Assembly (NCBI RefSeq): GCF_000425365.1
Contig: NZ_AUDH01000023.1
Span: forward strand, 1-51,733
DNA length: 51,733 bases
DNA from: Rubritepida flocculans DSM 14296
GTDB lineage: Bacteria; Pseudomonadota; Alphaproteobacteria; Acetobacterales; Acetobacteraceae
Direction of reading: 5' to 3'
This document shows, piece by piece, positions 5,456 to 41,699 of the stretch. The notes under the pieces were generated by a model that did no database searches, was not told the DNA's origin, and saw only the letters and a list, made by a program, of their open reading frames with translations. Positions within the stretch are counted from its first letter, which is position 1. Each line of letters starts with the position of its first letter. Position numbers and translations under genes: made by a program.

Positions 5456-5734
5456 ATGCCTGACGAAGCCAGGGTGAGCGTGCGTGACTTCCGCGGCCGG
5501 CTGTCCGAGCACCTGCGACGCGTACAGCGCGGGCAGACAGTGGTGGTGACGTCGAATGGCGAGCCGGTGGCCCGGCTCGTGCCGGTCGAGCGCCCGGCTG
5601 CCGCGCCTCGGCCGTTCGGCTTCATGAGGGGCCGGATCCGCCTGGCGCCCGATTTCCGGGAGACCCCGGCCGACATTCTGGCCGCGATGGAGGCCGATCC
5701 CTTCCCGCCGCCTCGGCGTGGGCGGGCCGCGTGA
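5456..5734 (+). CDS. Type II antitoxin, Phd/YefM family
   Basis: A 92-residue protein. ATG 5456-5458 is preferred over the in-frame GTG at 5438 because a GGAGGG ribosome-binding site lies five bases before it and the GTG falls inside the palindrome. The N-terminal 'MPDEARVSVRDFRGRLSEHLRRVQRGQTVVVTSNGEPVARLVPV' is a textbook Phd/YefM DNA-binding fold. The basic, proline-rich C-terminus would wrap the toxin. The stop overlaps the vapC start by four bases (GTGA). It is read against the surrounding prophage late genes. Confidence 0.88.
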   Translation: MPDEARVSVRDFRGRLSEHLRRVQRGQTVVVTSNGEPVARLVPVERPAAAPRPFGFMRGRIRLAPDFRETPADILAAMEADPFPPPRRGRAA

Positions 5735-6120
5735 GGCTGCTGCTCGATACGCATGTGCTGCTGTGGTTCGCGGCCGGCGATGAGCAGCTCGGGCGGAAGG
5801 CCCGCGCGGCGATCGCCGATCCCGGCAACACAGTGCTCGTCAGCGTCGTCTCCCTGTGGGAGGCGGCGATCAAGGTGCGGATCGGCAAGCTGGAGGTGGA
5901 CGTGCCTGCGCTGATCCGGGAGAGCGTGCGCGCCGGGTTCGATCTGCTGGACCTGACGCCGGGGCATGTCGAACGGCTGCTGACGCTGCCGGTCTCCGAC
6001 CATCATCGCAACCCGTTCGATCACCTGCTCCTGGCGCAGGCCGCGGCCGAGGGGGCGACCTTCGTCACCGACGACAGGCACGCCAAGCGCTATGGCGTGC
6101 CCATCCTCCGGTCATGGTGA
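5731..6120 (+). CDS. vapC: VapC-type PIN-domain toxin (RNase)
   Basis: A 129-residue PIN domain protein starting at GTG 5731-5733. Acidic residues expected at the metal site are present: D in 'MRLLLDTHVLLWFA', E in 'SLWEAAIKVRIGKL', D in 'NPFDHLLLAQA' and D in 'FVTDDRHAKRYGV'. VapC toxins cut tRNA or other RNA when freed from the antitoxin. The stop codon abuts, tail to tail, the stop of the protease/capsid gene, so the pair fits exactly between two late genes. Nothing suggests decay. Confidence 0.9.
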   Translation: MRLLLDTHVLLWFAAGDEQLGRKARAAIADPGNTVLVSVVSLWEAAIKVRIGKLEVDVPALIRESVRAGFDLLDLTPGHVERLLTLPVSDHHRNPFDHLLLAQAAAEGATFVTDDRHAKRYGVPILRSW

Positions 6121-15976: not shown

Positions 15977-17245
15977 TCACGCCGCCGCTCGCGCCCAGCG
16001 GGCGGCGGCGACATCGCTGAACGCCCGCTCCTCCCCGGCCAGCACCGCGGAGCTGCCAGTGAAGTCCTGCCAGCGCCGCACCGCCACATCAACGTAGCGG
16101 GGGTCGATCTCCATCGCGAGGCAGGCGCGTCCGGCGGTCTCCGCGGCGATGATGGTGCTGCCGCTGCCGCAGAACGGCTCGTACACGGACTCGCCTGGCG
16201 CGCTGTTGTTCAGCATCGGCCGGCGCATGCATTCCACGGGCTTCTGCGTGCCGTGCACGGTGGCGGCGTCCTCGTCGCCGGCGGTCGCGATCGGCCACAG
16301 CGTCGCCTGGTCCCGCGCCCCCTGCCAGTGCCCCGTCGCGCCCTTGCGCACCGCGTAGAGGCAGGGCTCGTGCTGCCAGTGGTAGTCCCCCCGCCCCAGC
16401 ACGAAGCGCGGCTTGGCCCAGACGATCTGGCTGCGCACCGCGAAGCCGGTCGCCTCGAGGCTCTCGATCACGGTGCGGGCGTGCACGCCGGCGTGCCAGA
16501 CGTAGGCGACGTCGCCGGGGAACAGCGCCCAGGCCTCCCGCCAGTCGGCGCGGTCGTCGTTGGCCACCCTGCCGGTGCGCATCGTCGCCGAGACGCCGGC
16601 CTCGTTGCGCCACTCGGGGTCGTAGTTCACCCCGTACGGGGGATCCGTGACCATGAGGTGCGTCCGCGCACCATCCAGCAGGCGGGCGACGTCCACGGCG
16701 CTGGTGGCGTCGCCGCAGAGCAGCCGGTGCGGCCCCATCAGCCAGAGGTCACCGGGGCGGGTGACCGGGACCGCCGGCGGCTCCGGCGCCGGCGCGTCGG
16801 GATCGCCACCGCCCACCGCCGGCGCCTCCGCCGTCGCCTCGGCGAGCAGCCGGTCCAGCGCGGCGCCATCGAAGCCGAGCAGCCCGAGGTCGAACTCCTC
16901 CGTGCGCAGCGCGCGCAGCTCGGCGGCGAGCAGCGCCTCGTCCCAGGTCGAGGTCAGCGCCAGCTGGTTGTCCGCCAGCCGGTAGGCCCGCGCCTGGGCC
17001 TCGGTCAGATGCGACAGGCGGATCGCCGGGACCGCCTCGAGGCCGAGCGCCCTGGCGGCCAGGATGCGGCCGTGGCCCGCGATCAGCACGCCGGCCTCGT
17101 CCACCAGCACCGGCACGGTGAAGCCGAACTCGCCGATCGAGGCTGCGAGCTGCGCCACCTGCTCGGGGGGATGCTGCCGGGCGTTCGCGGCATAGGGCAC
17201 CAGCGCCGCGACCGGCAGCATCTCGACGCGAAGGTCAGGCGGCAT
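15977..17245 (-). CDS. ParB-like domain fused to a DNA methyltransferase (first of two)
   Basis: A 422-residue protein from ATG 17243-17245. Residues about 5-100 are a ParB/sulfiredoxin-like domain ('ANARQHPPEQVAQLAASIGEFGFTVPVLVDEAGVLIAGHGRILAA'). Residues about 165-400 are a methyltransferase with the DPPYG catalytic motif before the AdoMet-binding motif FCGSGS, the beta-class order. DPPY suits N6-adenine methylation. 'GTQKPVECMRRPML' is the usual K-P phrase of these enzymes. It probably modifies phage DNA against host restriction or regulates it; there is no restriction partner nearby on this strand. It overlaps the second, related gene by 11 bases. Confidence 0.9.
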   Translation of the reverse strand: MPPDLRVEMLPVAALVPYAANARQHPPEQVAQLAASIGEFGFTVPVLVDEAGVLIAGHGRILAARALGLEAVPAIRLSHLTEAQARAYRLADNQLALTSTWDEALLAAELRALRTEEFDLGLLGFDGAALDRLLAEATAEAPAVGGGDPDAPAPEPPAVPVTRPGDLWLMGPHRLLCGDATSAVDVARLLDGARTHLMVTDPPYGVNYDPEWRNEAGVSATMRTGRVANDDRADWREAWALFPGDVAYVWHAGVHARTVIESLEATGFAVRSQIVWAKPRFVLGRGDYHWQHEPCLYAVRKGATGHWQGARDQATLWPIATAGDEDAATVHGTQKPVECMRRPMLNNSAPGESVYEPFCGSGSTIIAAETAGRACLAMEIDPRYVDVAVRRWQDFTGSSAVLAGEERAFSDVAAARWARAAA

Positions 17246-18704
17246 CGGCGAGCGCCCCCGCGCGCGCCGCGGCGACGGCGTCGTAGGCGCGGCCGTCGTC
17301 CGCGAGCGTCACCGGCAGGTCGGGATGCAGCATGCGCCAGCGGGCGACCGCCAGGTCGACATAGGCCGGCGCGAGCTCGATCGCCCGCACCCGCCGCCCG
17401 GTCCGCTGGCCGGCGAGGATCGTCGTGCCGCTGCCCGAGAAGGGCTCGAACACCGCCTCGCCCTCGTCGGTGTAGGCGCGCATCAGGAACTCCGGCAGCG
17501 CGACCGGGAACACCGCCGGGTGCTCGGTCTCGATGCCCCTGGCCTTGTGGCGGGTGATGCGCAGCACGCTGTCGGGGATGCGCATCTCCTGCACCGGCAG
17601 GCCGATGTGGGTGTAGGCCTTCACCGCGCCGTCGGCGGCGCGCAGCCCGCTGCCCTTGTTCGGCGTGCCGGCCCATTTGCAGGGGACGATCTTGTTGGGC
17701 GGCCGCGCCTCGCGGTTGAAGTGGAACACCAGCTCGAAGGCCGGCGCGAGCCGGCCGTTCCAGTCCCCCGGCAGGCCCGGCCCCTGGTCCCAGGCGTAGA
17801 GGGCGAAGCGCCGCCAGCCCTGGCCGCGCATCCCGTCGAGCCAGCCCTGCCAGTAGGGCTGCCATTCGCCGTCGCGGTGGATCAGGCCGAGGTTCACCAG
17901 CACCTGGCCGTCGGGGCGCAGCGCTGCGGGGAGATGCTGGAACACCCCCAGCATCAGCGCGTCCCAGTCGGACACGCCGCCCGTCGTGTAGGCCCGCTGG
18001 TTCCCGTAGGGCGGGGAGGTGAACAGCAGCGCCGCGCGGTCGGTGCCCATCACGCGGGCGACCGAGGCCGCATCGGTGCTGTCGCCGCAGAGGAGCCGGT
18101 GCTCGCCGAGCATCCACAGATCGCCCAGGCGGGTGACCGCCGCACGGGGCGCCACAGGCTCGGCGTCGGCCGGGTCCTCGGCCGCCGAGTCCTCCCCTGG
18201 CGCGTCGGCGGCGGGGTTGCCACTGGCAACCGCCGGGCTGGCAACCGGCCCGTCGCCAGGCTCGGTTGCCACCGCCTCCAGCCCGGCGAGCAGCCGCTCG
18301 ATCTCCGCGCCGTCGAAGCCGGTGAGCGCCAGGTCGATGCCGCCCGTCTCCTGCAGCTTCGCCACCTCGGCGGCGAGCAGCGCCTCGTCCCATCCCGCGT
18401 TCAGCGCGATGCGGTTGTCGGCCAGGCGATAGGCGGCCTTCTGCGCCTCGGTGAGGCCGGCGCGGACGATCGTCGGGACCGTGGCGAGGCCGAGGGACTG
18501 CGCGGCCAGCAGCCGGCCGTGGCCGGCGATGACCTCGCCGCGCTCGTCCACCAGCACCGGCGCGACGAAGCCGAACTCGAGGATGCTGGCCGCGATCTGC
18601 GCCACCTGCTCGGGCGAATGCGTGCGCGCGTTGCCGGCATAGGGCAGCAGCGAGGCGACCGCGCGCGCCTCGACGGCGCTCGCAGCCCATGGGGCCTGGG
18701 GCAT
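17235..18704 (-). CDS. ParB-like domain fused to a DNA methyltransferase (second, TSPPY type)
   Basis: A 489-residue protein from ATG 18702-18704, with the same two-domain layout as its neighbour: a ParB-like domain ('NARTHSPEQVAQIAASILEFGFVAPVLVDERGEVIAGHGRLLAA'), a low-complexity linker (about 145-190) and a methyltransferase with TSPPYG and, later, FSGSGTT. The S-P-P-Y form often marks N4-cytosine methylation, so the two enzymes may differ in the base they modify. An insertion between the two motifs ('DWDALMLGVFQHLPAALRPDGQVLVNLGLIHRDGEWQPYW') is missing from the first enzyme. The pair looks like an old tandem duplication followed by specialisation. Confidence 0.9.
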   Translation of the reverse strand: MPQAPWAASAVEARAVASLLPYAGNARTHSPEQVAQIAASILEFGFVAPVLVDERGEVIAGHGRLLAAQSLGLATVPTIVRAGLTEAQKAAYRLADNRIALNAGWDEALLAAEVAKLQETGGIDLALTGFDGAEIERLLAGLEAVATEPGDGPVASPAVASGNPAADAPGEDSAAEDPADAEPVAPRAAVTRLGDLWMLGEHRLLCGDSTDAASVARVMGTDRAALLFTSPPYGNQRAYTTGGVSDWDALMLGVFQHLPAALRPDGQVLVNLGLIHRDGEWQPYWQGWLDGMRGQGWRRFALYAWDQGPGLPGDWNGRLAPAFELVFHFNREARPPNKIVPCKWAGTPNKGSGLRAADGAVKAYTHIGLPVQEMRIPDSVLRITRHKARGIETEHPAVFPVALPEFLMRAYTDEGEAVFEPFSGSGTTILAGQRTGRRVRAIELAPAYVDLAVARWRMLHPDLPVTLADDGRAYDAVAAARAGALADAA

Positions 18705-27673: not shown

Positions 27674-27886
27674 TCAGGCGGCGTTGCGGGCGTCGGAGAC
27701 GGCGGCGCTGGAGGTGCGCAGCTGCGCCGCCTCGTACGCCTCGATGTCCTCGAGGCGATAGGCGACGCGGCCGCCGATCTTCAGGAAGCGCGGCCCCTGG
27801 CCGAGCCAGCGCCAGCGCTCCAGCGTGCGCGGGCTGAGACACCAGCGGCGCGCCAACTCGGACTGGGTGAGATGCTTCGTCCCCAT
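27674..27886 (-). CDS. Excisionase/AlpA-like helix-turn-helix protein
   Basis: A 70-residue protein. ATG 27884-27886 is chosen because GGAG lies six bases before it; an in-frame ATG at 27896-27898 is an alternative. 'HLTQSELARRWCLSPRTLERWRWLGQGPRFLKIGGRVAYRLEDIEAYEAAQL' is a MerR-like winged helix of the HTH_17/excisionase type. It could help excision by the serine recombinase or regulate the early promoter next to it. It is the only DNA-binding regulator in the early cluster; no CI-type repressor is visible. Confidence 0.75.
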   Translation of the reverse strand: MGTKHLTQSELARRWCLSPRTLERWRWLGQGPRFLKIGGRVAYRLEDIEAYEAAQLRTSSAAVSDARNAA

Positions 27887-28060
27887 GGTCCACTCCATCG
27901 TCCTTCGCGGAGGCGGCGCCGACACGCGCCACCGCTCCTTGAATGCGAAGAATTTCAGGGACTTAGGGGGAAACTTATATAGACAGCGCCGATTTTTCTT
28001 GTGACATCACGGCGGCGGAAACCGGCGGAAAACCGAGATCAAGGCCCGCCAAGTGTGACG
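27887..28060 (-). promoter_or_regulatory. AT-richer gap before the early genes: probable promoter region
   Basis: 174 bases between the HTH gene and the QueC-like gene, clearly less G+C-rich than the surroundings. On the minus strand a TATATA (27981-27976) is a possible -10 box about 90 bases before the HTH start; a matching -35 is poor. The repeated 'gtgaca(t/c)' phrases near 28000-28085 may be operator half-sites. Confidence 0.3.
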
Positions 28061-29953
28061 TCAGGGCGATGTGGTTGTGACATCGGGCGCTACCGTGGGG
28101 CCTCCAGGAATGGTCAAAGTCCCGATGTCGGCGAGCGAAAGCTCACGCAGCGCGGGGTTCAGCCGATAGCCGGATCGCTGGCGGTTTTCGATGAAGCTGT
28201 TCTGGTCGAGGGGCAGGCCAAGCGCGACGGCAAGCGGTTCAATGGCCTCTCTGAGCCGCCGGATCTGGGTGCGCAGGGACGGCTCGCTGATCTTGAGTCG
28301 GCCCGCGAGCACGTGGGGCGGCATGAACGGCACCTCGCGCCCGTCCTTCTTCGCGCTCCGGAAATCCGCCAGAAGCTCTTCCACGACTCGGAAGTTCGCC
28401 TCAGTCAGTGTGGTGCCGTCCCGGAACACGACCTTACGCCTCGTCTCGTCGATCGCGAACTCGAACACAGGAGCAGAGAGCCGATCGACGAAATCCTTGA
28501 CCTGCTTGTCGTAGTTGTCCTGGGGCGGCGGCTCGATGCTGCTGCGCGCGAGGCAGAGGGATATGAGCGATCCTGCCGGCAGCGCGTTCCTCGCGAGATC
28601 GGCGGCATGATCCCGGATGCCCTTCTCGATGACCGCATTGACCGCTGCGGCCTGACGCTGGAAGAGGTCGTACAGGCGATCGCCCGCCTCGGTCGGCGAA
28701 AGCCCCGGGAAGTGGCCGAGCGCGGCGACGACTTCCGGGAATTCGGCCGGGAACCGCTCCCTGGTGGTGCCGGCGATCTTTCGGAAGAAGGACACGTAGC
28801 TCACCGCCATCCGGCGATCGTCGCTCGTGCTGCGATCCGCCGTCAGCAGATCGACCTTGTAGTTCGACGCAGGCTCGTGGGCGCCGAGGCCGGCAGCGAG
28901 GATGGCGAAGCGTCGGTCGATGCACTGCGAGCACTCGCCGCAATGCGGGTGCTCCCTGGTCCGGCGATACGGTCTGGTGCAGCTGTTCGTCAGTGGCAGG
29001 AGATCGACCATGCCCGCATCCTGCACGAGCCTGGCAACCTCGCTTTTCGTCAGCCACTGCAATGGATTCTCGATCGAGAAGGAGCGATCCAGGAGTAGGG
29101 AGAACAGCTCCTCGAGGCCGCGAAAAACCCGAGGATGCGTGGTGCGCGTGGCCCGACCGCCAACGACATCGCCTGCCATGGGCGGATTGATGCTGACGAC
29201 GCCATTCTCATAGAAGGTGAGGCTGTCCTTGCCGGACATGCGCGCGATGACCAGGCCGAGGCACGCGAACAGGAACGACCGGCTCCGCTGCGAAAAGTCG
29301 ACGGCCTGGCTGTTCTCGTTTGTCACCCAGACAGGAATGTAGGCGATTCGACGCTCGAGGCCGCGCTCCTTCAGCCTCTCGACAAGCGTCTCTTGCACGT
29401 TCCTCACCTTGGACGACGAGGAATGCCCGACCAGGCAGACCGAGCGCTTGCGCATGACGAGGTCCTGCAGCGCGCCTGCGAACGAGTCGAGGCCGCCCGA
29501 GAACATCGCAATCACGTCATGGTCGGCCGACGCGTCGACGAAATTGTCGAAGTAGAGGTCGCGGGGATAGAAGGGGTCCCTCGCCTGACGGAACTCGAAG
29601 GAGTAGCTGTCGTCGGAGAGGAAGCCGAGCGTCTCGGCGAGCAGGCGCTGCACCTCCTGCTGCTGCCAGATGGCCAGCTTACGCACCGGGATCGCGAAAT
29701 GGAGGTTGCGCCGCCAGCTCTCGGCGAAGTTGGCCAGGGTGGTCCTTCCTCGGCCAACTCGCTGGTCCGCACAATAGACATAGGCGGCGATTTCAAGCAG
29801 ATCGATCAACAGGTCGGGCACGTTCGCGACCATCGCGCGCGTGATGTAGTCGATGCGCAGATTGACGTTCTTGCCCTCGCCGTGCACGTTTAAAACCACA
29901 GCATCGTCCTGTGACGGCATAGCGACGCCGCACTCTATCCGGGTTCTCTTCAC
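28061..29953 (-). CDS. QueC-like PP-loop ATPase with C-terminal winged helix; candidate defence protein
   Basis: A 630-residue protein from GTG 29951-29953, coupled by a four-base overlap to the gene upstream. Residues 1-145 are an unfamiliar N-terminal region. The PP-loop 'MFSGGLDSFAGAL' lies at 150-162. The QueC-type zinc site is complete: Cys325, Cys338, Cys341 and Cys344 (SCTRPY...HCGECSQCIDRR). Residues about 350-520 are helical and unassigned. Residues about 530-615 resemble an OmpR-type winged helix (LAGRLKISEPSLRTQIRRLREA...GYRLNP). Normal QueC is about 230 residues and makes preQ0. Enlarged QueC relatives occur in defence systems (Qat, type IV CBASS). No queuosine genes are here, so defence is the better inference. 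Confidence 0.75.
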   Translation of the reverse strand: MKRTRIECGVAMPSQDDAVVLNVHGEGKNVNLRIDYITRAMVANVPDLLIDLLEIAAYVYCADQRVGRGRTTLANFAESWRRNLHFAIPVRKLAIWQQQEVQRLLAETLGFLSDDSYSFEFRQARDPFYPRDLYFDNFVDASADHDVIAMFSGGLDSFAGALQDLVMRKRSVCLVGHSSSSKVRNVQETLVERLKERGLERRIAYIPVWVTNENSQAVDFSQRSRSFLFACLGLVIARMSGKDSLTFYENGVVSINPPMAGDVVGGRATRTTHPRVFRGLEELFSLLLDRSFSIENPLQWLTKSEVARLVQDAGMVDLLPLTNSCTRPYRRTREHPHCGECSQCIDRRFAILAAGLGAHEPASNYKVDLLTADRSTSDDRRMAVSYVSFFRKIAGTTRERFPAEFPEVVAALGHFPGLSPTEAGDRLYDLFQRQAAAVNAVIEKGIRDHAADLARNALPAGSLISLCLARSSIEPPPQDNYDKQVKDFVDRLSAPVFEFAIDETRRKVVFRDGTTLTEANFRVVEELLADFRSAKKDGREVPFMPPHVLAGRLKISEPSLRTQIRRLREAIEPLAVALGLPLDQNSFIENRQRSGYRLNPALRELSLADIGTLTIPGGPTVAPDVTTTSP

Positions 29954-30738
29954 GGCATGCCCTTCCGCTTGCCGAGCTCGCGGCGCAACTTTTCAGACGC
30001 GTAGCTGGCGAAATTCTTAAGGTCGTCCCGCGTCAGGATTTTGCCATCGCGATATCGGTTCTTCCCCAGCCAATCCCGCGCGAAGCCGCGCATGATGAAC
30101 GACGCCTCGTCGCAATGCCGGCGGATCGCGGCGTTGAAGGCGTCAAGGTCATGGAGGGATTTCGTCACGCGCTCCGGGCCGATCATGCGATGGAGGTCCC
30201 GGTCGAGATAGTAGTGGATCACGCGCTCGACCAGCCTCGCGTAGAAGCGCTGCGCCAACTCGGCGAACACGACGGTCTTTCGCAGCGAGGCCAGGTGGTC
30301 GCGCGACTTGTCGATGATGGGCTGCCAGAGGTCGGGCTGCCGCGGTTGTAGCGTTTCGGCGAGCGCACTCAGCGCGGCCTGGTGAGCGTGTTCCCCCAGG
30401 TCCGTCCCGGTGCTCGGGAAACGCCGGTGCACGCGTTCCAGGGCGTGGTCGAATGCGACAAGGACCTCCGGGATGGATTTCGGCAGAGGCGCCTTGAAGC
30501 CAAGTTCTGCGAGTTCTTCGGCGGCTGACTCGGCACCGGCCGCTTGGGGCAGCCGCGCAAGCAGCCAGAGCGCTTCGATGAAGACGGGATCCTTGGCCGC
30601 GCGCGTCAGCGCGTCCTGACCAACATCTGTCACCGCGTCCACCAAGTCGGCGGTGGGCAGCCCGCCATCGAGAAGAAACCGGACGATTTCCGGAAGCTTG
30701 CGATGGGCCGGAAGAGTCCCAAGACGCTGGTGGCCCAT
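29950..30738 (-). CDS. Unrecognised helical partner of the QueC-like protein
   Basis: A 262-residue protein from ATG 30736-30738. It is mostly helical, with phrases 'GRTLPAHRK'-like basic start (MGHQRLGTLPAHRKLPEIVRF), 'PVFIEALWLLARLPQAA', 'RKTVVFAELAQRFYARLVERVIHYYLDRDL' and a basic end 'ARDWLGKNRYRDGKILTRDDL...LRRELGKRKGMP'. There is no signal peptide, membrane segment or obvious catalytic motif. Its stop overlaps the start of the QueC-like gene (GTGA), so the two are made together and probably act together. It is not the QatB I would expect in a Qat system, and neither a Qat ATPase nor a TatD nuclease is present. Confidence 0.6.
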   Translation of the reverse strand: MGHQRLGTLPAHRKLPEIVRFLLDGGLPTADLVDAVTDVGQDALTRAAKDPVFIEALWLLARLPQAAGAESAAEELAELGFKAPLPKSIPEVLVAFDHALERVHRRFPSTGTDLGEHAHQAALSALAETLQPRQPDLWQPIIDKSRDHLASLRKTVVFAELAQRFYARLVERVIHYYLDRDLHRMIGPERVTKSLHDLDAFNAAIRRHCDEASFIMRGFARDWLGKNRYRDGKILTRDDLKNFASYASEKLRRELGKRKGMP

Positions 30739-31062
30739 GATTCACCGCGCAGCGTCCAGCCGACCAGCTGGCCAACGTCTTACCCTACGCCCGGAGGCTC
30801 CCGGAAGCACCCAAGCCAGCTCCATGAACGCCGGATCGCGGCACCGGGCCGCATTGCAAGCATGGCGAACGGATGACTGTTTCGCAATCGGGAGTAGAGA
30901 AGGGGGGCGCCGGGTAGCATGGCGAGAAGTCGCTCCGCACACCCTCCCTTGTAAGGCGGCATTCGCGCGGTTTCGCGGAGATGCTTTTTTGCACGGCGGA
31001 ATGCGCTAAGCGTTTGATTTGGCTACCAAAGGGACGCTTGGCTGCGTTACGCCCTCCTGGCC
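30739..31062. other. 324-base gap between divergent operons
   Basis: This separates the minus-strand QueC-like pair from the plus-strand integration genes. Promoters for both, and possibly the attachment site of the serine recombinase, are expected here. I see no gene with convincing codon use and cannot place promoter boxes with confidence. Confidence 0.4.
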
Positions 31063-31256
31063 ATGCGGCTCCATCTCAACCAGTCGCTCCCACCCCATCT
31101 CCGCGAGGTCTGCGACCTCCTCGCCCGCGGCCTGTTGCGGCTGAGGAGCCGCGCTGCCGAGGAAGCCGCGCGCGAAGACGCGGCGGCGGGAGACACTCGC
31201 CTACACTTCGTCCCTACCCAGCGCCGTCATGCGAACCCCAGGACGAGGGAGACCGC

Positions 31257-31260
<4 letters not shown>
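31063..31260 (+). CDS. Small protein of the recombinase operon
   Basis: A 65-residue protein from ATG 31063-31065 that ends in a four-base overlap (ATGA) with the DUF2924 gene. 'LREVCDLLARGLLRLRSRAAEEAAREDA' followed by 'GDTRLHFVPTQRRHANP' matches the small open frames that regularly precede DUF2924 and recombinase genes in alphaproteobacterial prophages. The overlap and this conserved order argue that it is a real gene. Its function is unknown. Confidence 0.65.
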
Positions 31261-31756
<496 letters not shown>

Positions 31757-31760
<4 letters not shown>

Positions 31761-33091
31761 CCCGCCGCGACGCCGCCCTGCCGGCGAAGGTCCGGAAGCT
31801 CCGCTGCGCCGTCTACACCCGGAAGTCCACCGAGGAGGGGCTGGAGCAGGCGTTCAACTCCCTCGACGCGCAGCGCGAAGCCTGCGAGGCCTTCATCGCC
31901 TCGCAGCGCTCCGAGGGCTGGGTGCTGGTGCATGACCGCTACGACGATGGCGGCGTCTCGGGCGGTACCCTCGATCGCCCCGCGCTGAAGCGCCTGCTGG
32001 CCGACATCGAGGCCGGGCTGGTCGATGTGGTGGTGGTCTACAAGATCGACCGCCTGTCCCGCTCGCTGATGGACTTCGCCAGGCTGGTGCAGACCTTCGA
32101 CGCGCACGAGGTCACCTTCGTCTCGGTGACGCAGTCCTTCAACACCACGACCAGCATGGGGCGCCTCACGCTGAACATCCTGCTCAGCTTCGCGCAGTTC
32201 GAGCGCGAGGTGATCGGCGAGCGGGTGCGCGACAAGATCGCCGCCTCCCGCGCGCGGGGCATGTGGATGGGCGGCCCCGTGCCGCTCGGCTACCGGGTCG
32301 AGAACCGCAAGCTGGTGGTGGACGAGGCGGGGGCGGCGACGGTCCGCCGCGTGTTCGAGAGGTTCGCCGAGCTGGGCTCCGCCACCCGGCTGCTGCCGGC
32401 CCTCCGGGCGGAGGGCCTCGTCACCAGGACCGGACGGCCCTTCGACAAGGGGGCGGTCTACAAGCTGCTGGTGAACCGGACCTATCTCGGCGAGGCGGTG
32501 CACAAGGGGAAATCCTACCCCGGCGAGCACGCCGCCATCATCCCCCGGGACCTCTGGGACCGGGTGCACGCCATCCTGGCCGAGAGCCCGCGCGCCCGCG
32601 CGGCGAAGAACCGCGCCCAGGCGCCGGCGCTGCTGCGCGGCCTGCTGTTCGGGCCGGACGGGCGGGCGATGTCGCCGACCCACACCCGGAAGAAGGGCCG
32701 GCTCTACCGCTACTACGTCAGCCAGGCGGTGCTGCAGGGCGGGGCGAACGACGCGCCGCACCGCCGCCTGCCGGCCGGGGAGATCGAGGGGCTGGTGATG
32801 GCGCAGGTCCGCGCCCTGCTGCGCCAGCCGGAGGTCGTCGTCGGCACCTGGCGGGCGGCGCGGGCGGAGGCGCCGGACCTCACCGAGGCGGAGGTGCGCG
32901 AGGCGCTCGGGCGGCTCGATCCGCTCTGGGACGAGCTGTTCCCCGGCGAGCAGGAGCGGATCGTGCGGCTGCTGGTCGAGCGCGTGACCGTCACCGAGGG
33001 CGGGGCGGAGATCCGGCTGAACCTGGAAGGGCTCGCCGGGCTCGCCCGCGAGTGGGCGGCGAAGCAGCCGCGGGAGCGCATGGCGGCATGA
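31757..33091 (+). CDS. Large serine recombinase (integrase)
   Basis: A 444-residue protein from ATG 31757-31759. The N-terminal resolvase domain has the catalytic Ser24 in 'AVYTRKSTEEGLEQ', then 'DGGVSGGTLDRPALKRLLADI', 'YKIDRLSRSLMDFARL' and 'QFEREVIGERVRDKIA'. The Recombinase domain follows (about 165-270: 'PLGYRVENRKLVVDEAGAATVRRVFERFAELG'). It is short for the family because the coiled-coil/zinc part ends early, though 'LLRGLLFGPDGRAMSPTHTRKKGRLYRYYV' is the start of a zinc-beta ribbon-like region. It would integrate and excise the prophage. The attachment site should lie nearby but is not identifiable from one end. Confidence 0.92.
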
Positions 33092-33618: not shown

Positions 33619-35454
33619 ATGAGCTATGCTGGCCTCTCGTCCCTGATCTGGTCCGTCGCCGATCTGCTGCGCGGCGACTACAAGCCCTCCGAATACGGCC
33701 GGGTCATCCTGCCATTCACCGTGCTACGCCGCCTCGACTGCGTGCTGGCGCCCACCAAGGCCGAGGTGCTGGCGAAGAAGGCGGAATGCGAGAAGCGGGG
33801 CCTCAACCCGGAACCCTTCCTCACGCGCCTCACCGGCGTGCCCTTCGCCAATACCTCCTCCCTCGATCTCGCCCGCCTGATGGGCGATCCGGACCATATC
33901 GGCCCGAACCTCGCCGCCTACATCCAGGGCTTCTCTGCCCCCGTGCGCGACATCTTCGAGCGCTTCCGCTTCGCCGAGCAGACCGACCGGCTGCAGAAGG
34001 CGGGCCTGCTCTACCAGGTCACGGAGCGTTTCGTCGGCTTCGACCTCAGCCCCGCCGCCGTCAGCAACCACGACATGGGCCTCGCCTTCGAGGAGCTGAT
34101 CCGTAAGTTCGCCGAGATCTCCAACGAGACCGCCGGTGAGCACTTCACGCCGCGCGACGTCATCAAGCTGATGGTCAACCTGCTGTTCATCGAAGACAAC
34201 GACATCCTCACCCCCGGCAACCCGGCGGTGCGCACCATCTATGACCCCACCGCCGGCACCGGCGGCATGCTCTCCGTCGCAGGCGAGCATCTGCTGGCGC
34301 ACAACCCTGCCGCGCGGCTGACCATGTTCGGCCAGGAGCTGAACGACGAGAGCTACGCCATCTGCAAGGCGGACATGCTCATCAAGGGCCAGGACGTGCG
34401 CAACATCGTCCCCGGCAACACGCTCTCGGACGACGGACACCCGACGCAGAAGTTCGACTACATGCTCTCCAACCCGCCCTTCGGCGTGGAGTGGAAGAAG
34501 GTCGAGAAGGAGGTCCGGCGCGAGCACGAGCAGCTGGGCCACGCGGGGCGCTTCGGCCCCGGTCTGCCTCGCATCTCGGACGGCTCGCTCTTGTTCCTGC
34601 TGCATCTGCTCTCGAAGATGCGCCCGGCGCAGGAGGGCGGCAGCCGGATCGGCATCGTGCTCAACGGCTCGCCGCTGTTCACCGGCGGCGCCGGCTCGGG
34701 CGAGAGCGAGATCCGCCGCCATGTGCTGGAGAACGACCTGGTGGAGACGATCATCGCGCTGCCCACTGACATGTTCTTCAACACCGGCATCGCCACCTAT
34801 GTCTGGATCCTGACCAACCGCAAGCCAGCACATCGGCGCGGCCTGGTGCAGCTCATCGACGCCTCGTCGCTGTGGCAGAAGATGCGCAAGAGCCTCGGTT
34901 CCAAGCGCAAGGAGATGGTCGAGGAAGACATCGCCGCCGTCACCCGCCTGTTCGGCGAGGCGGCGGAGGCCGATCTCGCCACCATCACCGATGCCACCGG
35001 CAAAACGACCCGCGTCATTCTGCGCGCGGGCGAGGCGCCGCCGGCCGCGCCGGAAGGCGGGCGCGTCAAGGTCGCCCCGCTCTCGCGCCTGATCCGCAAC
35101 GAGGTGTTCGGCTACCGGCAGATCACGGTTGAGCGCCCCTTGCGCGACGAGGCGGGACGCATCGTGCTCGGCACCAAGGGCAAACAGAGGGGCAAGCCGC
35201 TGCCCGACCCGGCGCTGCGCGACACCGAGAACGTCCCCCTCGATCAGGACACCGCCGACTACCTGGCGCGCGAGGTGCTGCCGCATGCCCCCGATGCCTG
35301 GGTGGACGAGGAGAAGACGAAGATCGGCTACGAGATCCCCTTCAACCGCTTCTTCTACGTGTTCGAAGCCCCCCGGCCGCTGGAGGCGATCGATGCCGAG
35401 CTGCGGGAGGTGACGGCGCGCATCAAGGCGATGCTGGACGGGCTTGCGGCATGA
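33619..35454 (+). CDS. hsdM: Type I restriction-modification system, methyltransferase subunit
   Basis: A 611-residue protein from ATG 33619-33621. The N-terminal HsdM_N helical domain ('[36 protein letters not shown]') is followed by the N6-adenine methyltransferase, with AdoMet motif [10 protein letters not shown] at 209-217 and catalytic NPPF at 285-288. With HsdS it would methylate one adenine in each strand of a two-part site. It is the first gene of a five-gene operon; the start lies 90 bases after the recombinase operon. Its stop overlaps darT by four bases. Confidence 0.95.
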
Positions 35455-36101
35455 GCGGGACGTGTCCCGTTCATCCCAAGATCTATCACATCCTGCATGT
35501 CGACCGTCTGCCCTCTGTGCTCGCCGACGGCTTCCTGTTCAGCGATGCGCAGATGCAGGGCCGGCAAGGCTGCGGCACCACCATCGGCATGAGCAGGATC
35601 AAGGCGCGCCGCCGGGAACTCCCGGTGGAATGCCGCCCAGGAACCTGCGTCGGCGACTACGTCCCTTTCTACTTCTGCCCGCGCTCCGTGATGCTCTATG
35701 TCATCTGGCGCGCGAACCACCCTGAGCTTGCCTACCGCGGCGGGCAGAGGCCGATCGTGACACTGGAAGCCGACCTTCACGAGGTGGTCGCCCACGCGGA
35801 CGGTGCCGGGATCCCCTGGGCCTTCAGCCTGTCCAACGCCGGGGCGGCGTATGCCACCTTCCGGGCAGAGCTCCCGGCGCTGCAGGAGCTCGACTGGACG
35901 GCGATCATGGCACGCGACTTCCGCTCGCCGGAGGTGAAAGAGGCCAAGCAGGCCGAGTTCCTGTTCCACCGCCGCTTCCCCTGGCGGCTCGTGGCGCGGA
36001 TCGGCGTCCAGAACACGACCACACGACAGAAGGTGGTGGACTGCTTGGCGGGGGCAGGGCACACCCCGCCTGTCGCCCTCGAGCCGGACTGGTACTATTA
36101 G
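35451..36101 (+). CDS. darT: DarT DNA ADP-ribosyltransferase toxin
   Basis: A 216-residue protein from ATG 35451-35453. The DarT (DUF4433) pattern is complete: '[24 protein letters not shown]' (NAD+-binding His13), '[44 protein letters not shown]' (substrate-binding loop and core), '[15 protein letters not shown]' and '[16 protein letters not shown]', with Glu169 the likely catalytic residue. DarT attaches ADP-ribose to thymidine in single-stranded DNA and blocks replication. It lies within the hsd operon, coupled to hsdM by overlap. Its antitoxin follows after 24 bases. Confidence 0.93.
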
Positions 36102-36125
36102 GGCCGGGAGCGAGGAGCAGAAGGC

Positions 36126-37172
36126 ATGATCACCCTCAAGACGGGCGATATCCTCGCCGAGCCCGCCGAAGCTCTGGTGAACACCGTCAATTGTGTCGGC
36201 GTCATGGGCCGTGGGGTCGCGCTGCAGTTCCGCAATGCCTTCCCCGACAATTTCCGCGCCTACGAAGCCGCCTGCGCGCGCGGCGAAGTGCGGCCAGGGC
36301 AAATGTTCGTCTTCGAACGCCAGGCCCTCGATGCGCCGCGCTGGATCATCAACTTTCCCACCAAGCGGCATTGGCGTGGCAGAAGCCGGATCGAGGACAT
36401 CGAGGCGGGGCTCGTCGCGCTGGTCGAGGAGATCCGCGCCCGCAACATCCGGTCAGTCGCCATCCCCCCGCTCGGCTGTGGGCTCGGCGGGCTCGATTGG
36501 GGGCAGGTGCGGCCTCGCATCGAGGCGGCACTGGCAGCGCTGCCCGAGGTGTCGGTGACCGTGTTCGCCCCTGCCGGCGCGCCCGCAGCGGGCCGCGGGA
36601 TGATGGCGGCAGCGGCGTCGCACATGACGCCCGGGCGGGCGGCGCTGATCGGGCTGATGCGCCGCTATCTCGCTGGGGTCGGCGAGCCCTTCGTCACCCT
36701 GCTCGAGGTGCACAAGCTCGTGTACTTCCTGCAGGAGGCGGGCGAGCCGCTGCGCCTGCGCTTCGCCAAGGCGCCGGCCGGCCCCTTCGCCGAGAATCTC
36801 GGCCCCGTGCTGCGCGCCGTCGAGGGGCATTACCTGTCCGGCTACCGTGACGGCGGGGACTCGCCGGAGAAGGAGATCGCGATCCTGCCCGGCGCGGTGG
36901 AGGATGCCGAGGCTGCCCTGGCCGCCGCGGACGGGACGCGCGAGCGCTTCGCGCGTGTGGCTGCGCTGGTCGAGGGGTTCGAGACGCCTTTCGGCCTGGA
37001 GCTGCTGGCGACGGTGCATTGGGTGGCGAAGGTGGAGGGCTGGGACGAAGCGGCGGTGGTCGCCGGGGTGCATGGCTGGGGGCGGCGCAAGCACGGCTTC
37101 TCGGAGCGGCAGATACGCTTGGCCCTGGACCGTCTGCGCGGGCAGGGCTGGCTCTCGGCACCGACGGCATGA
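36126..37172 (+). CDS. darG: DarG macrodomain antitoxin
   Basis: A 348-residue protein from ATG 36126-36128, with a GAGGAG-type ribosome-binding site just upstream. The N-terminal macrodomain (about 1-155) has 'TGDILAEPAEALVNTVNCVGVMGRGVALQF' and 'SVAIPPLGCGLGGLDWGQV', the ADP-ribose-binding loops of the hydrolase that removes the mark made by DarT. The C-terminal domain (about 165-340, 'GLMRRYLAGVGEPFVTLLEVHKLVYFLQEAGEPLRLRFAKAPAGPF') is the toxin-binding part typical of DarG. Its stop overlaps the hsdS start by four bases. Confidence 0.93.
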   Translation: MITLKTGDILAEPAEALVNTVNCVGVMGRGVALQFRNAFPDNFRAYEAACARGEVRPGQMFVFERQALDAPRWIINFPTKRHWRGRSRIEDIEAGLVALVEEIRARNIRSVAIPPLGCGLGGLDWGQVRPRIEAALAALPEVSVTVFAPAGAPAAGRGMMAAAASHMTPGRAALIGLMRRYLAGVGEPFVTLLEVHKLVYFLQEAGEPLRLRFAKAPAGPFAENLGPVLRAVEGHYLSGYRDGGDSPEKEIAILPGAVEDAEAALAAADGTRERFARVAALVEGFETPFGLELLATVHWVAKVEGWDEAAVVAGVHGWGRRKHGFSERQIRLALDRLRGQGWLSAPTA

Positions 37173-38542
37173 GCTTTCCTGCCTATCCGGCCTATCGCGA
37201 CAGCGGCGTGCCGTGGCTGGCCGAGGTGCCGGGGCATTGGGCCGTGCGGCGGCTTCGCTTCCTTGCCGAAATCCGCCCGAGTGGCGTGGACAAGCATAGC
37301 CTCGAAGGCGAGTTGCCGGTGCGACTCTGCAACTACGTCGATGTCTACAAGAACGACCGGATTACCGAGGCGCTCGCCTTCCTGGAGGCGACGGCAACGC
37401 CCGCCGAGATCGAACGCTTCTCGCTGCGCCCCGGGGACGTGCTGATCACCAAAGACAGCGAGACGCCGAACGATATCGCGGCAGCGGCACTCGTCGAACC
37501 CAGCGCGGCGGGCGTGGTGTGCGGCTATCATCTTGCTCTGCTGCGTCCGTTGCCCGGCGGGGTTGGCGGCGCGTTCCTGTTCTGGGCCTTCAAAGCGCCG
37601 GGAACGCAGGCGCAATGCTCCGTGCGGGCACAGGGGATCACACGCTTCGGTCTTTCCAGCGCGGCCATCGGTGATGTGCTGCTCCCCCTCCCACCCCCCG
37701 CCGAACAGCGCGCCATTGCCGCCTTCCTCGACCGCGAATGCGGCAAGATCGATGCGCTGGTGGCGGAGCAGGAGCGGCTGATCGCGCTGCTGAAGGAGAA
37801 GCGCCAGGCCGTCATCTCCCACGCCGTCACCAAGGGCCTCGACCCCACCGCGCCGATGAAGGACTCCGGCGTGGCGTGGCTGGGGCAGGTGCCGGCGCAT
37901 TGGGAGGTGAAGCGGTTGAAGTTCTTGGCTCGTGTGCAGACCGGCGTCGCCAAAGGTCGCGACCTATCCGGAACCGACGTGATTGAGGTCCCATATCTCC
38001 GCGTTGCCAATGTGCAGGATGGATATCTCGACCTTGAAGACGTGGCCACCATCCAGATTGCGCGCGATGAGTTGGATCGCTATGGACTGCAGCCGGGCGA
38101 CGTTCTGATGAACGAAGGTGGCGACTTCGATAAGCTCGGACGGGGGCACGTCTGGCATGGCGCGATCTCGCCTTGTATCCATCAGAACCATGTCTTCTCG
38201 GTTCGGCCACACAGCATTGAGCCCGAATGGTTGGCACTGATCACCAGTGCGGACTGTGGTCGGTTTTTCTTCATGTCCCGGTCCAAGCAAAGCACGAATC
38301 TGGCTTCTATATCATCTTCGAATCTTGTAGAGCTTCCGCTGTGCATTCCTCCGCAGCCGGAGCGATCAGCGATCCTGGAAGCTGTCTCGGCGGAGACGAC
38401 GAAACTCGACACCCTCACCACCGAAGCCGAGCGCGCCATCGCCCTCCTCAAGGAACGCCGCGCCGCGCTGATCTCCGCCGCCGTCACCGGCCGGATCGAC
38501 GTGCGCGGCCTTGTGCCGGCCGAGGAGGCGAAGGCCGCATGA
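37169..38542 (+). CDS. hsdS: Type I restriction-modification system, specificity subunit
   Basis: A 457-residue protein from ATG 37169-37171. Two target-recognition domains each open with an 'AYRDSGVPWLAEVPGHWAVRRLRF' / 'MKDSGVAWLGQVPAHWEVKRLKF' phrase and end in a conserved helix ('AEQRAIAAFLDRECGKIDALVAEQERLIALLKEKRQAVIS' and the matching C-terminal one), the usual pseudo-repeat of HsdS. Each domain reads half of a bipartite DNA site. The second domain (about 37.92-38.34 kb) is much less G+C-rich than the rest, which suggests it was acquired by recombination. It overlaps darG by four bases. Confidence 0.93.
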   Translation: MSFPAYPAYRDSGVPWLAEVPGHWAVRRLRFLAEIRPSGVDKHSLEGELPVRLCNYVDVYKNDRITEALAFLEATATPAEIERFSLRPGDVLITKDSETPNDIAAAALVEPSAAGVVCGYHLALLRPLPGGVGGAFLFWAFKAPGTQAQCSVRAQGITRFGLSSAAIGDVLLPLPPPAEQRAIAAFLDRECGKIDALVAEQERLIALLKEKRQAVISHAVTKGLDPTAPMKDSGVAWLGQVPAHWEVKRLKFLARVQTGVAKGRDLSGTDVIEVPYLRVANVQDGYLDLEDVATIQIARDELDRYGLQPGDVLMNEGGDFDKLGRGHVWHGAISPCIHQNHVFSVRPHSIEPEWLALITSADCGRFFFMSRSKQSTNLASISSSNLVELPLCIPPQPERSAILEAVSAETTKLDTLTTEAERAIALLKERRAALISAAVTGRIDVRGLVPAEEAKAA

Positions 38543-38574
38543 GCCCGCCCCGCCCACCCCGCCGCGCGCCATGA
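38539..38574 (+). CDS. Eleven-codon mini-cistron linking hsdS to hsdR
   Basis: MSPPRPPRRAP. Its ATG overlaps the hsdS stop (ATGA at 38539-38542) and its stop overlaps the hsdR ATG (ATGA at 38571-38574), so ribosomes could pass from hsdS to hsdR without scanning. The proline-rich content could slow translation. A function beyond coupling is speculation. Confidence 0.35.
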   Translation: MSPPRPPRRAP

Positions 38575-41500
38575 CCGACCTCTACCGCGAAGCCCGGCTG
38601 GAAGAGGCGATCTGCACCCATCTCGCCGCCCATGGCTGGCTGTATGACCCCGGCGCCGCCGCCCGCCACGACCGCGCCCGCGGCCTCTTCCCCGAAGACC
38701 TTCTCGCCTGGGTGCAGCAGACCCAGCCCGAGGCCTGGGAGGCGCTCACCAAGGCGCACGGCCCGGCGGCGGCGACGGCGCTCGCCGACCGGCTGCGCGC
38801 CGCGCTCGACCGGCAGGGCACGCTCGATGTGCTGCGCCACGGCCTCGACATGGTGGGGCTGCGCCGGCCCATTCAGCTTGCCCAGTTCCGCCCGGCGCTG
38901 GCGATGAACGAGGCGCTCGCCGCCCGCTATGCCGCCAACCGCCTGCGCGTGGTGCGCCAGCTCCGCAACTCGCCGCATCACGAGAACAGCCTCGACCTGG
39001 TGCTGTTCCTCAACGGCATCCCCGTCGCCACCGCCGAGCTCAAGTCGGACTACACGCAACGGGTCGAGGATGCGGTGGACCAGTACCGGCACGACCGCCT
39101 GCCGAGGCTGCCGGGGCGGAACACGCCGGAGCCGATCCTCGCCTTCCCCGGCGGAGCGCTGGTGCATTTCGCCGTCTCCAACAGCGAGGTGCGGATGTGC
39201 ACACGCCTCGAAGGGCCGGACAGCCGCTTCCTGCCCTTCAACCGCGGCCATGACGGGGGCGGCGGCAATCCGCCCAACCCGCGCGGCGCCCCCACCGCCT
39301 ATCTGTGGGAGGAGGTGTGGGAGCGCCATTCCTGGCTCGACATCCTCGGCCGCTACCTGGTGCCGGTGAAGGACGAGAAGAAGCGCCTCCAGGGCTGGAT
39401 CTTCCCGCGCTTCCACCAGCTCGACGCCACGCGGAAGCTGCTGGCGGCGGTGCTGCGGGAGGGTCCCGGCGGGCGCTACCTGATCCAGCACTCGGCAGGG
39501 TCGGGCAAGACCAACTCCATCGCCTGGACGGCGCATTTCCTGGCCGACCTGCACGATGCGGCGAACCGCAAGCTGTTCGACACGGTGCTGGTGGTCTCCG
39601 ACCGCACGGTGCTGGATCGGCAGTTGCGCGAGGCGGTGGAGGGCTTCGAGCGCACGCAGGGGGTGGTCGCCACCATCACCGGGGAGGGGGCGAGCAAGAG
39701 CCGCGAACTGGCCGAGGCGCTGGCGGCGGGCAAGAAGATCGTCGTCTGCACCATCCAGACCTTCCCCTTCGCGCTGCAGGAGGTGCGGCGGCTTGCGGCG
39801 ACCCAGGGCAAGCGCTTCGCGGTGATCGCCGACGAGGCGCATTCCTCCCAGGCCGGCCAGGCCGCGGCGAAGCTGAAGGCGACGCTGACGGCCGAGGAGA
39901 TCGCAGCCCTCGAGGATGGCGGCGAGGTCGATATGGAGGACCTGCTCGCGGCCGAGATGAAGGCCCGTGCGGCGCAGGAGGTGGGCATCAGCTACGTCGC
40001 CTTCACCGCCACGCCGAAGGCGAAGACGCTGGAGCTGTTCGGCCGCCGGCCCGACCCCTCGCGCCCCGCGGGCAAGGACAACCTGCCCGCGCCCTTCCAC
40101 ATCTATTCCATGCGCCAGGCGATCGAGGAGGGCTTCATCCTCGACGTGCTGCGCAACTACACCTCCTGGCGCATGGCCTTCCGCCTGACGCATGAGGGGC
40201 GCGAGCTGGACGAGCGGGAGGTGGATGCCAGCGAGGCGAAGAAGGGCATCCTCGGCTGGGTGCGGCTGCATCCGCACAACATCGCCGCGCGCGTGCGGAT
40301 CGTGGTCGAGCATTTCCGGCAGAACGTGGCGCATCTGCTCGGCGGCCGGGCGAAGGCGATGGTGGTGACGGCGAGCCGCAAGGAGGCGGTGCGCTGGAAG
40401 ACGGCGATGGAGGCCTACATCCGGCAGCGCCGCTACCCGCTCGGCGTGCTGGTCGCCTTCTCCGGCGAAGTCAGCGACCCGGAGACGGGCCCCGAGCCCT
40501 TCACCGAGGCGACCATGAACCCCGCCCTGCGCGGGCGCGACATCCGCGAGGCCTTCGCCACGCCCGAGTTCAGCCTGCTGCTGGTGGCGAACAAGTTCCA
40601 GACCGGCTTCGATCAACCGCTGCTCTGCGCCATGTATGTGGACAAGCGCCTTTCCGGCATCCAGGCGGTGCAGACGCTCTCGCGCCTCAACCGCGCCTAT
40701 CCGGGGAAGGACGCCACCTATGTGGTGGACTTCGTGAACGAGCCCGAGGAGATCCTGGCGGCCTTCAAGCAGTATCACACCACCGCCGAGCTCGCCGATG
40801 TCAGCGACCCCAATGTGGTGCTGGATCTGCGCAGCAAGCTGGACGCGATGGGCCTCTACGACCGCTTCGAGGTCGAGCGCGTGGCCAAGGTGGCGGTGAA
40901 CCCGAAGGCGACGCAGGGGGATCTGGACGCCGCCATCGGTCCGGTGAGCAACCGGCTGCTGACGCGCTTCCGGCAGGCGCAGCAGGCCTGGCGGGCCGGG
41001 GCGGACGGGACGAAGGCGCGCGAGGCGGCAAAGGCCGAGATGGATGTGCTGCTGCTCTTCAAGCGCGACCTCGGCAGCTATGTCCGGCTGTACGAGTTCC
41101 TCGGGCAGATGTTCGACTACGGGAACACCGAGTTCGAGAAGCTCTACCTGTTCGGCAAGCTGCTGCTGCCGCTGCTGGACTACGGGCGGGAGCGGGATGG
41201 GGTGGACCTCTCGGCGCTGCGGCTGACGCACCACCGGATGCGCGACCTCGGCCAGCAGCGGCTGAACCTTGCCGGCGGCGAGCCCGCCGAGGGGCTGAAG
41301 CCGCCGACCGATGTCGGCTCCGGCCAGGTGCAGGACCGGCAGAAGCAGCGGCTCGGGGAAATCATCCGGGCGCTGAACGATCTCTTCGAGGGTGAGTTGA
41401 CGGACGGCGACCGGGTCGCCTTCGCCGAGAGCATCCGGTCCAAGATGATGGAAAGCGCCACCCTGCGCGCCCAGGCGGCGGCGAACACGCGCGAGCAGTT

Positions 41501-41699
41501 CGGCAACTCGCCGAACCTGCGGGAGGAGCTGCTGAACGCGATCATCGCGACGATGGAGGCACACGGCAGCATGAGCCGTCAGGCGCTGAACTCGGAGGCG
41601 GTTCAGGCCGGGCTGCTGGCAGTGCTGCTCGGTCCGGGAGCGCTTTGGGAGGGGCTGCGGAAGGGGGAGGAGCCGGGGGCTGGTGCCGATCCGCGATAG
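38571..41699 (+). CDS. hsdR: Type I restriction-modification system, restriction subunit
   Basis: A 1042-residue protein from ATG 38571-38573. The N-terminal nuclease domain shows Asp142 ('NSLDLVLFLNG') and Glu156-x-Lys158 ('ATAELKSD'), the PD-(D/E)XK site. The SF2 translocase follows, with Walker A 'QHSAGSGKTNSIAW' near 310, 'IADEAHSSQAG' and 'SYVAFTATPKAKTLELFG'. Later motifs include 'QTGFDQPLLCAMYVDKRLSGIQAVQTLSRLNRAYPGK'. The C-terminal helical region contacts the methylase. It would pull in DNA at unmethylated sites and cut where complexes collide. Length and motifs are intact. Confidence 0.95.
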   Translation: MTDLYREARLEEAICTHLAAHGWLYDPGAAARHDRARGLFPEDLLAWVQQTQPEAWEALTKAHGPAAATALADRLRAALDRQGTLDVLRHGLDMVGLRRPIQLAQFRPALAMNEALAARYAANRLRVVRQLRNSPHHENSLDLVLFLNGIPVATAELKSDYTQRVEDAVDQYRHDRLPRLPGRNTPEPILAFPGGALVHFAVSNSEVRMCTRLEGPDSRFLPFNRGHDGGGGNPPNPRGAPTAYLWEEVWERHSWLDILGRYLVPVKDEKKRLQGWIFPRFHQLDATRKLLAAVLREGPGGRYLIQHSAGSGKTNSIAWTAHFLADLHDAANRKLFDTVLVVSDRTVLDRQLREAVEGFERTQGVVATITGEGASKSRELAEALAAGKKIVVCTIQTFPFALQEVRRLAATQGKRFAVIADEAHSSQAGQAAAKLKATLTAEEIAALEDGGEVDMEDLLAAEMKARAAQEVGISYVAFTATPKAKTLELFGRRPDPSRPAGKDNLPAPFHIYSMRQAIEEGFILDVLRNYTSWRMAFRLTHEGRELDEREVDASEAKKGILGWVRLHPHNIAARVRIVVEHFRQNVAHLLGGRAKAMVVTASRKEAVRWKTAMEAYIRQRRYPLGVLVAFSGEVSDPETGPEPFTEATMNPALRGRDIREAFATPEFSLLLVANKFQTGFDQPLLCAMYVDKRLSGIQAVQTLSRLNRAYPGKDATYVVDFVNEPEEILAAFKQYHTTAELADVSDPNVVLDLRSKLDAMGLYDRFEVERVAKVAVNPKATQGDLDAAIGPVSNRLLTRFRQAQQAWRAGADGTKAREAAKAEMDVLLLFKRDLGSYVRLYEFLGQMFDYGNTEFEKLYLFGKLLLPLLDYGRERDGVDLSALRLTHHRMRDLGQQRLNLAGGEPAEGLKPPTDVGSGQVQDRQKQRLGEIIRALNDLFEGELTDGDRVAFAESIRSKMMESATLRAQAAANTREQFGNSPNLREELLNAIIATMEAHGSMSRQALNSEAVQAGLLAVLLGPGALWEGLRKGEEPGAGADPR

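Follow-up and report, generated by a model that had tools for sequence, protein, structure and literature searches.

The window analysed here, a 51,733-nucleotide stretch of the 3.83-Mb genome of Rubritepida flocculans DSM 14296 (contig NZ_AUDH01000023.1), holds within a prophage a pair of reverse-strand genes that encode an enlarged enzyme of the QueC family and a smaller protein, hereafter the partner. Our analysis points to the pair as a variant of the Qat system. By its active-site signature, family models and predicted fold, the large protein can be identified as a QatC that carries an additional C-terminal domain, and a strictly conserved glycine follows the start codon of the partner.

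The partner gene comes first and the gene of the large protein follows, the two open reading frames (ORFs) overlapping by the four bases GTGA (Table 1). Tail, head, portal, terminase and primase/helicase genes of the prophage lie on the downstream side of the pair; on the opposite side, and divergent from it, stand the genes of a DUF2924 protein and a large serine integrase. The G+C content of the pair is 64.1%, compared with 72.7% and 69.8% in the 5-kb flanks, and a search for a sigma-70-like promoter around the pair found none. A first-pass annotation, made from the letters of this DNA, had already described the two overlapping ORFs, their location between prophage early genes and the integrase and their lower G+C content, and in these respects it was correct.

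Table 1. Coordinates in the window of the gene pair, its functional elements and the nearest prophage genes
Feature	Position	Strand	Details
Partner protein, 262 residues	29950..30738	-	ATG start; probable diverged QatB counterpart, proposed N-terminal acceptor
N-terminal motif MGHQRLGTLP of the partner	30709..30738	-	Family motif MGHxRLGxLP; Gly2 is the proposed modification site
Extended QatC-like enzyme, 630 residues	28061..29953	-	GTG start
PP-loop SGGLDS, residues 152-157	29483..29500	-	ATP pyrophosphate binding; S152, G153, G154, D156 and S157 invariant in 40/40 rows of alignment A2
QatC-type substrate motif ATRTTHP, residues 268-274	29132..29152	-	Replaces the Tyr/Asp pair of QueC and Cap9
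Zinc-site region C325, C338, C341, C344	28922..28981	-	Invariant in 40/40 rows; common to canonical QatC
OmpR-like winged-helix domain, residues ~495-612	28118..28471	-	Follows a low-confidence linker, ~471-493
DUF2924 protein, integration module	30981..31760	+	Divergent from the pair; PF11149 2.6e-52
Large serine recombinase/integrase	31655..33091	+	PF00239 1.1e-40; phrog_95 integrase 1.5e-109
Small HTH_17 protein	27674..27925	-	Prophage gene closest to the pair on its downstream side; PF12728 1.1e-6

Co-occurrence and distribution of the two genes

The viral contigs of IMG/VR were scanned with a DNA pattern for the partner motif MGHxRLGxLP, which returned 102 stretches. A frame of at least 140 residues ran from the motif ATG in 86 of them, of which 85 are full-length and one is broken. 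We excluded the remaining 16, 6 for running past the contig end and 10 for early stops, which represent contig ends, early stops or chance; one of these ten (L057) has a QatC in its locus, so that it probably represents a broken pair. Adding the window's own strain, the single locus in a scan of genome contigs, and a plasmid of Leptospira noguchii brought the total to 88 partner loci. A QatC adjoins the partner in 85 of the 88 (83 of the 86 viral ones), and the three exceptions are two contig ends (L027 and L097) and the broken partner (L064). In the reverse direction, with QatC alone as the query, there were 168 viral relatives, and 72 of the 79 loci retained from these carry the partner, five of them cut at a contig edge. 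In the remaining seven the QatC match begins right at the edge of its stretch or some 100 bases from it at most; all loci with room upstream have a partner. The two sets of loci overlap, in that 52 of the 67 partners reaching their N-terminus in the second set are identical over residues 6-200 to a member of the first; the QatC-based selection itself makes no use of the partner. The pairing is strict, and the two genes form a unit. The first-pass annotation had named repeated co-occurrence as the check on its proposal, and it was found, far beyond what chance would give, in the 83 viral loci by motif and in whole genomes by profile.

Neither the 88 partner loci nor the window yielded a QatA or a QatD; these turned up at one locus only, L117, which is a canonical Qat locus of a plasmid. 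Matches to KAP NTPases were absent from the 20 whole viral records examined and from the source genome. A match to the TGT family was likewise absent from 20 viral records, which include the viral-contig twin of the window's prophage (L026 in G943).

Searches with the partner profile were positive in 9 of 200 genomes from the family, 5 of 385 from the class and 3 of 398 from the phylum; every count takes in the genome of the window itself, and one class match consists of two fragments. With a QatC profile, 289 alphaproteobacterial genomes gave 13 matches. Three of these, counting the window's own and one that its contig cuts off, are an extended QatC with its partner, four combine a short QatC with QatD and, at the edge of the locus, a piece of QatA, two belong to a third kind and four are weak matches on proteins of 214-262 residues. 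In a tree of 39 QatC sequences the 25 extended ones, including that of Leptospira, fall on one side of a branch with support 100/100, several of the branches being long. The L. noguchii plasmid, which lies outside the class, has the same two-gene order, with a partner that begins MGHERLGILP and a QatC of 621 residues. A tblastn search of the partner against plasmids and phage records gave no match, the Leptospira partner matched itself only when searched against plasmids, and the Leptospira QatC sequence found no relatives among viral sequences.

The third kind of QatC-like locus (L300 and L301, at G298:C10 and G295:C3) has frames of 459-463 residues with the PP-loop SDGMDS, no QatA or QatD match in the stretch, and a downstream frame that by eye starts with an XRE-like helix-turn-helix. 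Its upstream partner begins M(S/T)DGPHRSLPM..W, recalling MGHxRLGxLP..W. This N-terminal pattern occurs in 2 of the 289 class genomes and in none of the viral contigs.

The QatC-type enzyme and its C-terminal domains

Against the NCBIfam QatC model NF041925 the 630-residue protein scored 214.8 bits (E 1.9e-63), which is below the equivalog cut-off of 280, and the PADLOC QatC model matched it at 7e-56; Pfam lists QueC only (7.1e-9). Its nearest relatives in a PDB sequence search are QatC chains (1.1e-29). The QueC equivalog TIGR00364 was not reached (23.4 bits for a cut-off of 150.3), and the PHROGs match was to phrog_1550, labelled QueC-like queuosine biosynthesis (5.5e-17). The AlphaFold2 model, with a mean predicted local distance difference test score (pLDDT) of 85.3, was matched by Foldseek to the QatC chain of the QatB-QatC crystal structure (9y02_B; E 1.7e-20, 470 columns, TMt 0.72), and after the QatC chains came QueC and then Cap9 (9nto_B, 9.1e-4). 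The likeness to QatC spans the first ~450 residues, and the winged-helix domain comes after it.

The PP-loop and four zinc-type cysteines that the first-pass annotation had read in an enlarged QueC-family enzyme were located; S152, G153, G154, D156 and S157 of the former and all four cysteines are invariant in the 40 extended sequences of alignment A2, from which three further representatives with a cut QatC were left out. We compared 17 extended QatC with 10 short canonical QatC from plasmid qatABCD-type loci. At least 16 of the former and at least 9 of the latter share SGGxDS, R223/R225/S226, ENG, R270/T271/H273/P274, the four cysteines and R347/R348. By motif register, ATRTTHP would be the equivalent of T278/T280 in Pseudomonas aeruginosa QatC, residues reported to stand in for the nucleobase-reading Tyr/Asp of QueC and Cap9 and to be essential for defence (PMC13279940). 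The shared residues and this motif thus make the active site QatC-type, and not QueC- or Cap9-type. The earlier description of the protein as a generic QueC relative therefore has to be replaced. A cysteine near the N-terminus (C8, in xIxCG) is invariant in the 40 extended QatC of A2 and unconserved in the 10 canonical ones.

The OmpR-like winged helix of the first-pass annotation was supported in part: Trans_reg_C was matched in 3 of the 40 relatives scanned (best 1e-9), whereas the window protein itself had no strong match, response-regulator chains heading the PDB profile search of its C-terminal domain at E 0.06 only. The last domain of the Leptospira QatC (L003:7857-9722) has a DpnII-MboI nuclease fold (1.2e-9). 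The longer viral QatC (675-712 residues in the alignment) end in yet another domain, of ~172-205 residues, with no usable Pfam or PDB match; DUF7260 lay under its cut-off at E 0.0033. This second type, too, may be winged-helix-like, a conjecture from a resemblance of motifs. Just upstream of the pair, a LexA-type DNA-binding ORF is present in 32 of the 86 viral loci, and in 26 of the 35 with a QatC of at least 670 residues; one such ORF, at L056:7688-7921, has 77 residues. A 5'-truncated relative flanked by insertion sequences on a Rhodobacteraceae plasmid gave a weak Trans_reg_C match (E 0.16). In Qat, QatA is reported to bind DNA and QatD is a predicted nuclease; the C-terminal DNA-binding or nuclease domains of the extended QatC may stand in for them.

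The partner and its N-terminal glycine

The N-terminus of the partner is fixed by an in-frame TGA two codons ahead of the ATG (TGA-ATC-ATG). Glycine follows the start in all 67 QatC-found loci whose partner match reaches the N-terminus, and His3 is present in 66 of them. The 67 comprise 62 that read MGH, three with a GTG or TTG start, one whose start codon lacks its first base at a contig edge and one that reads MGNS. All 32 representatives at 80% identity have Gly2, and no other 15-residue block of the protein is as conserved as residues 1-15; the whole-genome loci found by profile have an aligned N-terminus of MGH, once VGH. The N-terminus of QatB is MGTS, and its Gly2 is reported to be essential, as are the catalytic residues of QatC (PMC13279940). 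In type IV CBASS, for which NDG conjugation has been described (PMC11996544), the CD-NTase begins MGGS, and its Gly2, likewise essential, is the acceptor of 7-deazaguanine (PMC13279940, PMC11996544).

The partner of the window matched nothing in Pfam, NCBIfam or PADLOC, and in this sense the first-pass annotation had rightly called it a protein of no known family; PHROGs gave one weak match (E 0.33). Searches of the PDB with the single sequence and with the profile returned chance matches only, and a fold search of BFVD found nothing convincing. The AlphaFold2 model was built from 43 aligned sequences (alignment A1, the window with 42 cluster representatives; the identical L002 and the Leptospira L003 were left out of A1, and L064, of 145 residues, out of the alignments). 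It is all-helical (pLDDT 83.4, predicted template modelling score 0.86), with residues 2-4 under pLDDT 50, a first predicted helix at residues 15-19 and a long helix from residue 29. Foldseek searches against 350,542 PDB chains listed 50 matches, and among those listed the QatB chain 9y01_A has the highest probability (0.72), the other 49 chains having at most 0.28. Profile comparison by hhalign with 14 QatB gave E 1.9e-4 and a probability of 48%, compared with E 0.42 and 0.1% for the reversed control. From the profile comparison and the Foldseek ranking we read the partner as probably a QatB that has diverged very far, with moderate evidence for the homology.

Relation to Qat and role of the pair

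The pair shares with Qat a QatC core bearing SGGxDS, RxRS, a T-(R/K)-T-x-HP-type motif and the zinc site, together with a small helical protein that has an N-terminal Met-Gly and is encoded immediately upstream. It differs from Qat in that no qatA or qatD was found beside it, in a partner that has MGHxRLGxLP for MGTS, and in the extra C-terminal domain of its QatC, a winged-helix domain for the window and one of nuclease fold for Leptospira; it also sits at a prophage integration module and occupies its own side of the QatC tree. QatC is described as one cluster that has a median of ~400 residues and of whose neighbourhoods about a third contain qatA and qatD (PMC13329287), and QatB and QatC alone are reported to suffice against lambda-vir (PMC13279940). 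Type IV CBASS (Cap9 with CdnD and Cap10) likewise joins a QueC-family enzyme to a protein with an N-terminal glycine. In contrast to CdnD, however, the partner is no CD-NTase by Pfam, NCBIfam or PADLOC and its model is all-helical; a Cap10-like match is missing from the 20 viral records, and Cap9 has ~185 residues and the base-reading residues of QueC (PMC13329287, PMC13279940), which the 630-residue protein lacks. With QueC the large protein has in common the Rossmann/PP-loop core and the zinc cysteines; it differs in its size of 630 residues, its substrate-site residues and its regular partner gene. The gene set thus differs from both qatABCD and type IV CBASS, as had been noted at first. 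The further idea of an unrelated new system gives way to a variant of Qat, because the large protein reads as a QatC and the partner as a probable diverged QatB. We found no description of this variant in the open-licence literature; subscription papers lie largely outside it, so that one may be missed. The terms "prophage" and "two-gene" do not occur in the main text of PMC13279940, nor does "prophage" in that of PMC13329287.

Kinship to QatBC makes N-terminal modification of the partner the likeliest activity of the pair, and defence of the lysogen its likeliest role. We lean, by somewhat more than even chances, towards a natural two-gene QatBC-type immunity module of prophages in which QatC would modify the N-terminal glycine of its partner. 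We infer that the two proteins would assemble into a complex and that, once Met1 is removed, the Gly2-His3 tail of the partner would enter the QatC active site. QatC would then spend adenosine triphosphate (ATP), bound at SGGLDS, to couple Gly2 to a small molecule that may be a 7-deazaguanine. The winged helix would engage DNA, and the modified complex would block incoming phages and so protect the lysogen. The defence or superinfection-exclusion role put forward in the first-pass annotation is accordingly plausible on our analysis. A more speculative extension, which we consider possible but would not yet bet on, is that these are compact modules in which QatB-like N-terminal nucleobase tagging might be wired to DNA through interchangeable QatC C-terminal domains that replace QatA and QatD. 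The interchangeable domains would be, with the same reserve, the OmpR-like winged helix, the second type of the longer proteins and the restriction-nuclease fold, so that one enzyme might recognise or attack DNA as well as tag a protein. For Qat itself, the action of QatC on QatB and the arrest of phage by QatB-QatC without QatA and QatD are stated to be open (PMC13279940).

Of the 44 viral loci whose stretch extends 3 kb or more upstream, 40 have DUF2924 and 40 the serine recombinase. A survey of DUF2924 gave at least 598 relatives, and the pair is present in just 4 of the 80 loci retained; it is thus optional cargo of the phage integration module. Other cargo at the same module is mostly unnamed. 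Elsewhere in the window, a type I restriction-modification locus (HsdM, HsdS, HsdR) fills the space between the integrase, which it directly follows, and a tRNA-Glu gene (33619-41699, plus strand), with genes for a DarT ADP-ribosyltransferase and a macro-domain, DarG-like protein between HsdM and HsdS. A Phd/YefM antitoxin and PIN-domain toxin pair (5438-6120, plus strand) is found within the prophage structural region, on the strand opposite to the adjoining head and portal genes, and a prophage gene at 17235-18704 (minus strand) joins a ParB-like domain to a DNA methyltransferase domain.

Several observations weigh against an immunity module of QatBC type. The fold match of the partner to 9y01_A has a Foldseek E of 0.15 and TM values of 0.30 and 0.35, and ranks second by E-value; the best E among the matches listed (0.078) belongs to an unrelated designed protein. 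The hhalign probability is no more than 48%, and with 10 QatB it was 10.9% only (E 0.0028). A QatB hidden Markov model fails to single out the partner, the best-placed partner ranking 31 among 9,450 phage-locus ORFs, and the QatB family model NF041924 is touched by 2 of 43 partner relatives (best E 0.02); the partner stays under the family thresholds. Many QatB have a disordered N-terminal tail of 30-90 residues (PMC13279940), and the partner lacks such a long tail. The viral stretches are limited in length, so that a distant qatA or qatD could escape in loci beyond the 20 whole records. The QatC reaction, moreover, is reported not to have been reconstituted, and QatC-type enzymes are without the deazaguanine-reading Tyr/Asp (PMC13279940). 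The integration site was also considered as a defence hotspot, which was not supported: PADLOC models, run against 10 proteins of the other cargo, recognised just a RecD-type helicase, besides one match that was DinG-like and weak.

The main rival is a regulator of lysogeny or of prophage genes, in which the QatC-like enzyme would modify the partner and the winged helix would bind a prophage operator, so that phage genes are controlled and no defence is involved. The winged helix and the LexA-type ORF would fit such a regulator too, and the company of DUF2924 and the serine recombinase is also in its favour. We nevertheless regard it as unlikely, given that the pair looks like dispensable cargo at the DUF2924 module, that the Leptospira QatC ends in a nuclease fold instead of a winged helix, and that both genes show kinship to QatBC. 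As diverged, phage-borne copies of both Qat proteins, the pair might instead mimic or poison the deazaguanylation of a host Qat or CBASS and so aid the phage, and 4 of the 289 sampled Alphaproteobacteria do have a short QatC together with QatD and a piece of QatA. Such a counter-defence decoy seems very unlikely to us, since a decoy has no need of the catalytic residues that are kept in 40 of 40 rows, and the carrier genome, having no KAP NTPase match, has no recognisable QatA. Production of 7-deazaguanine by the large protein, for queuosine or for protection of phage DNA, would agree with its QueC-family fold, PP-loop and zinc site and with its phrog_1550 match. The QatC-type residues of its base-binding site, the low QueC equivalog score, the separate canonical QueC of the source genome, the absence of a TGT-family enzyme from all 20 viral records and a partner with an invariant N-terminal glycine led us to reject a queuosine or DNA-modification enzyme as a most improbable reading; one published E. 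coli QatC, in addition, failed to complement a queC mutant (PMC13329287).

Model-based annotation misses the pair, because its QatC falls under the curated cut-off and its partner has no model, and what emerges is a widespread and apparently unnamed variant of Qat. Just two genes are retained in these prophages, and a partner that is nearly unrecognisable has kept its N-terminal Met-Gly, which would put Gly2 at the core of a mechanism shared with Qat. The pair may therefore be a minimal natural system in which to find the modification, and the swapped C-terminal domains of its QatC hint at the signal or the target of the complex.

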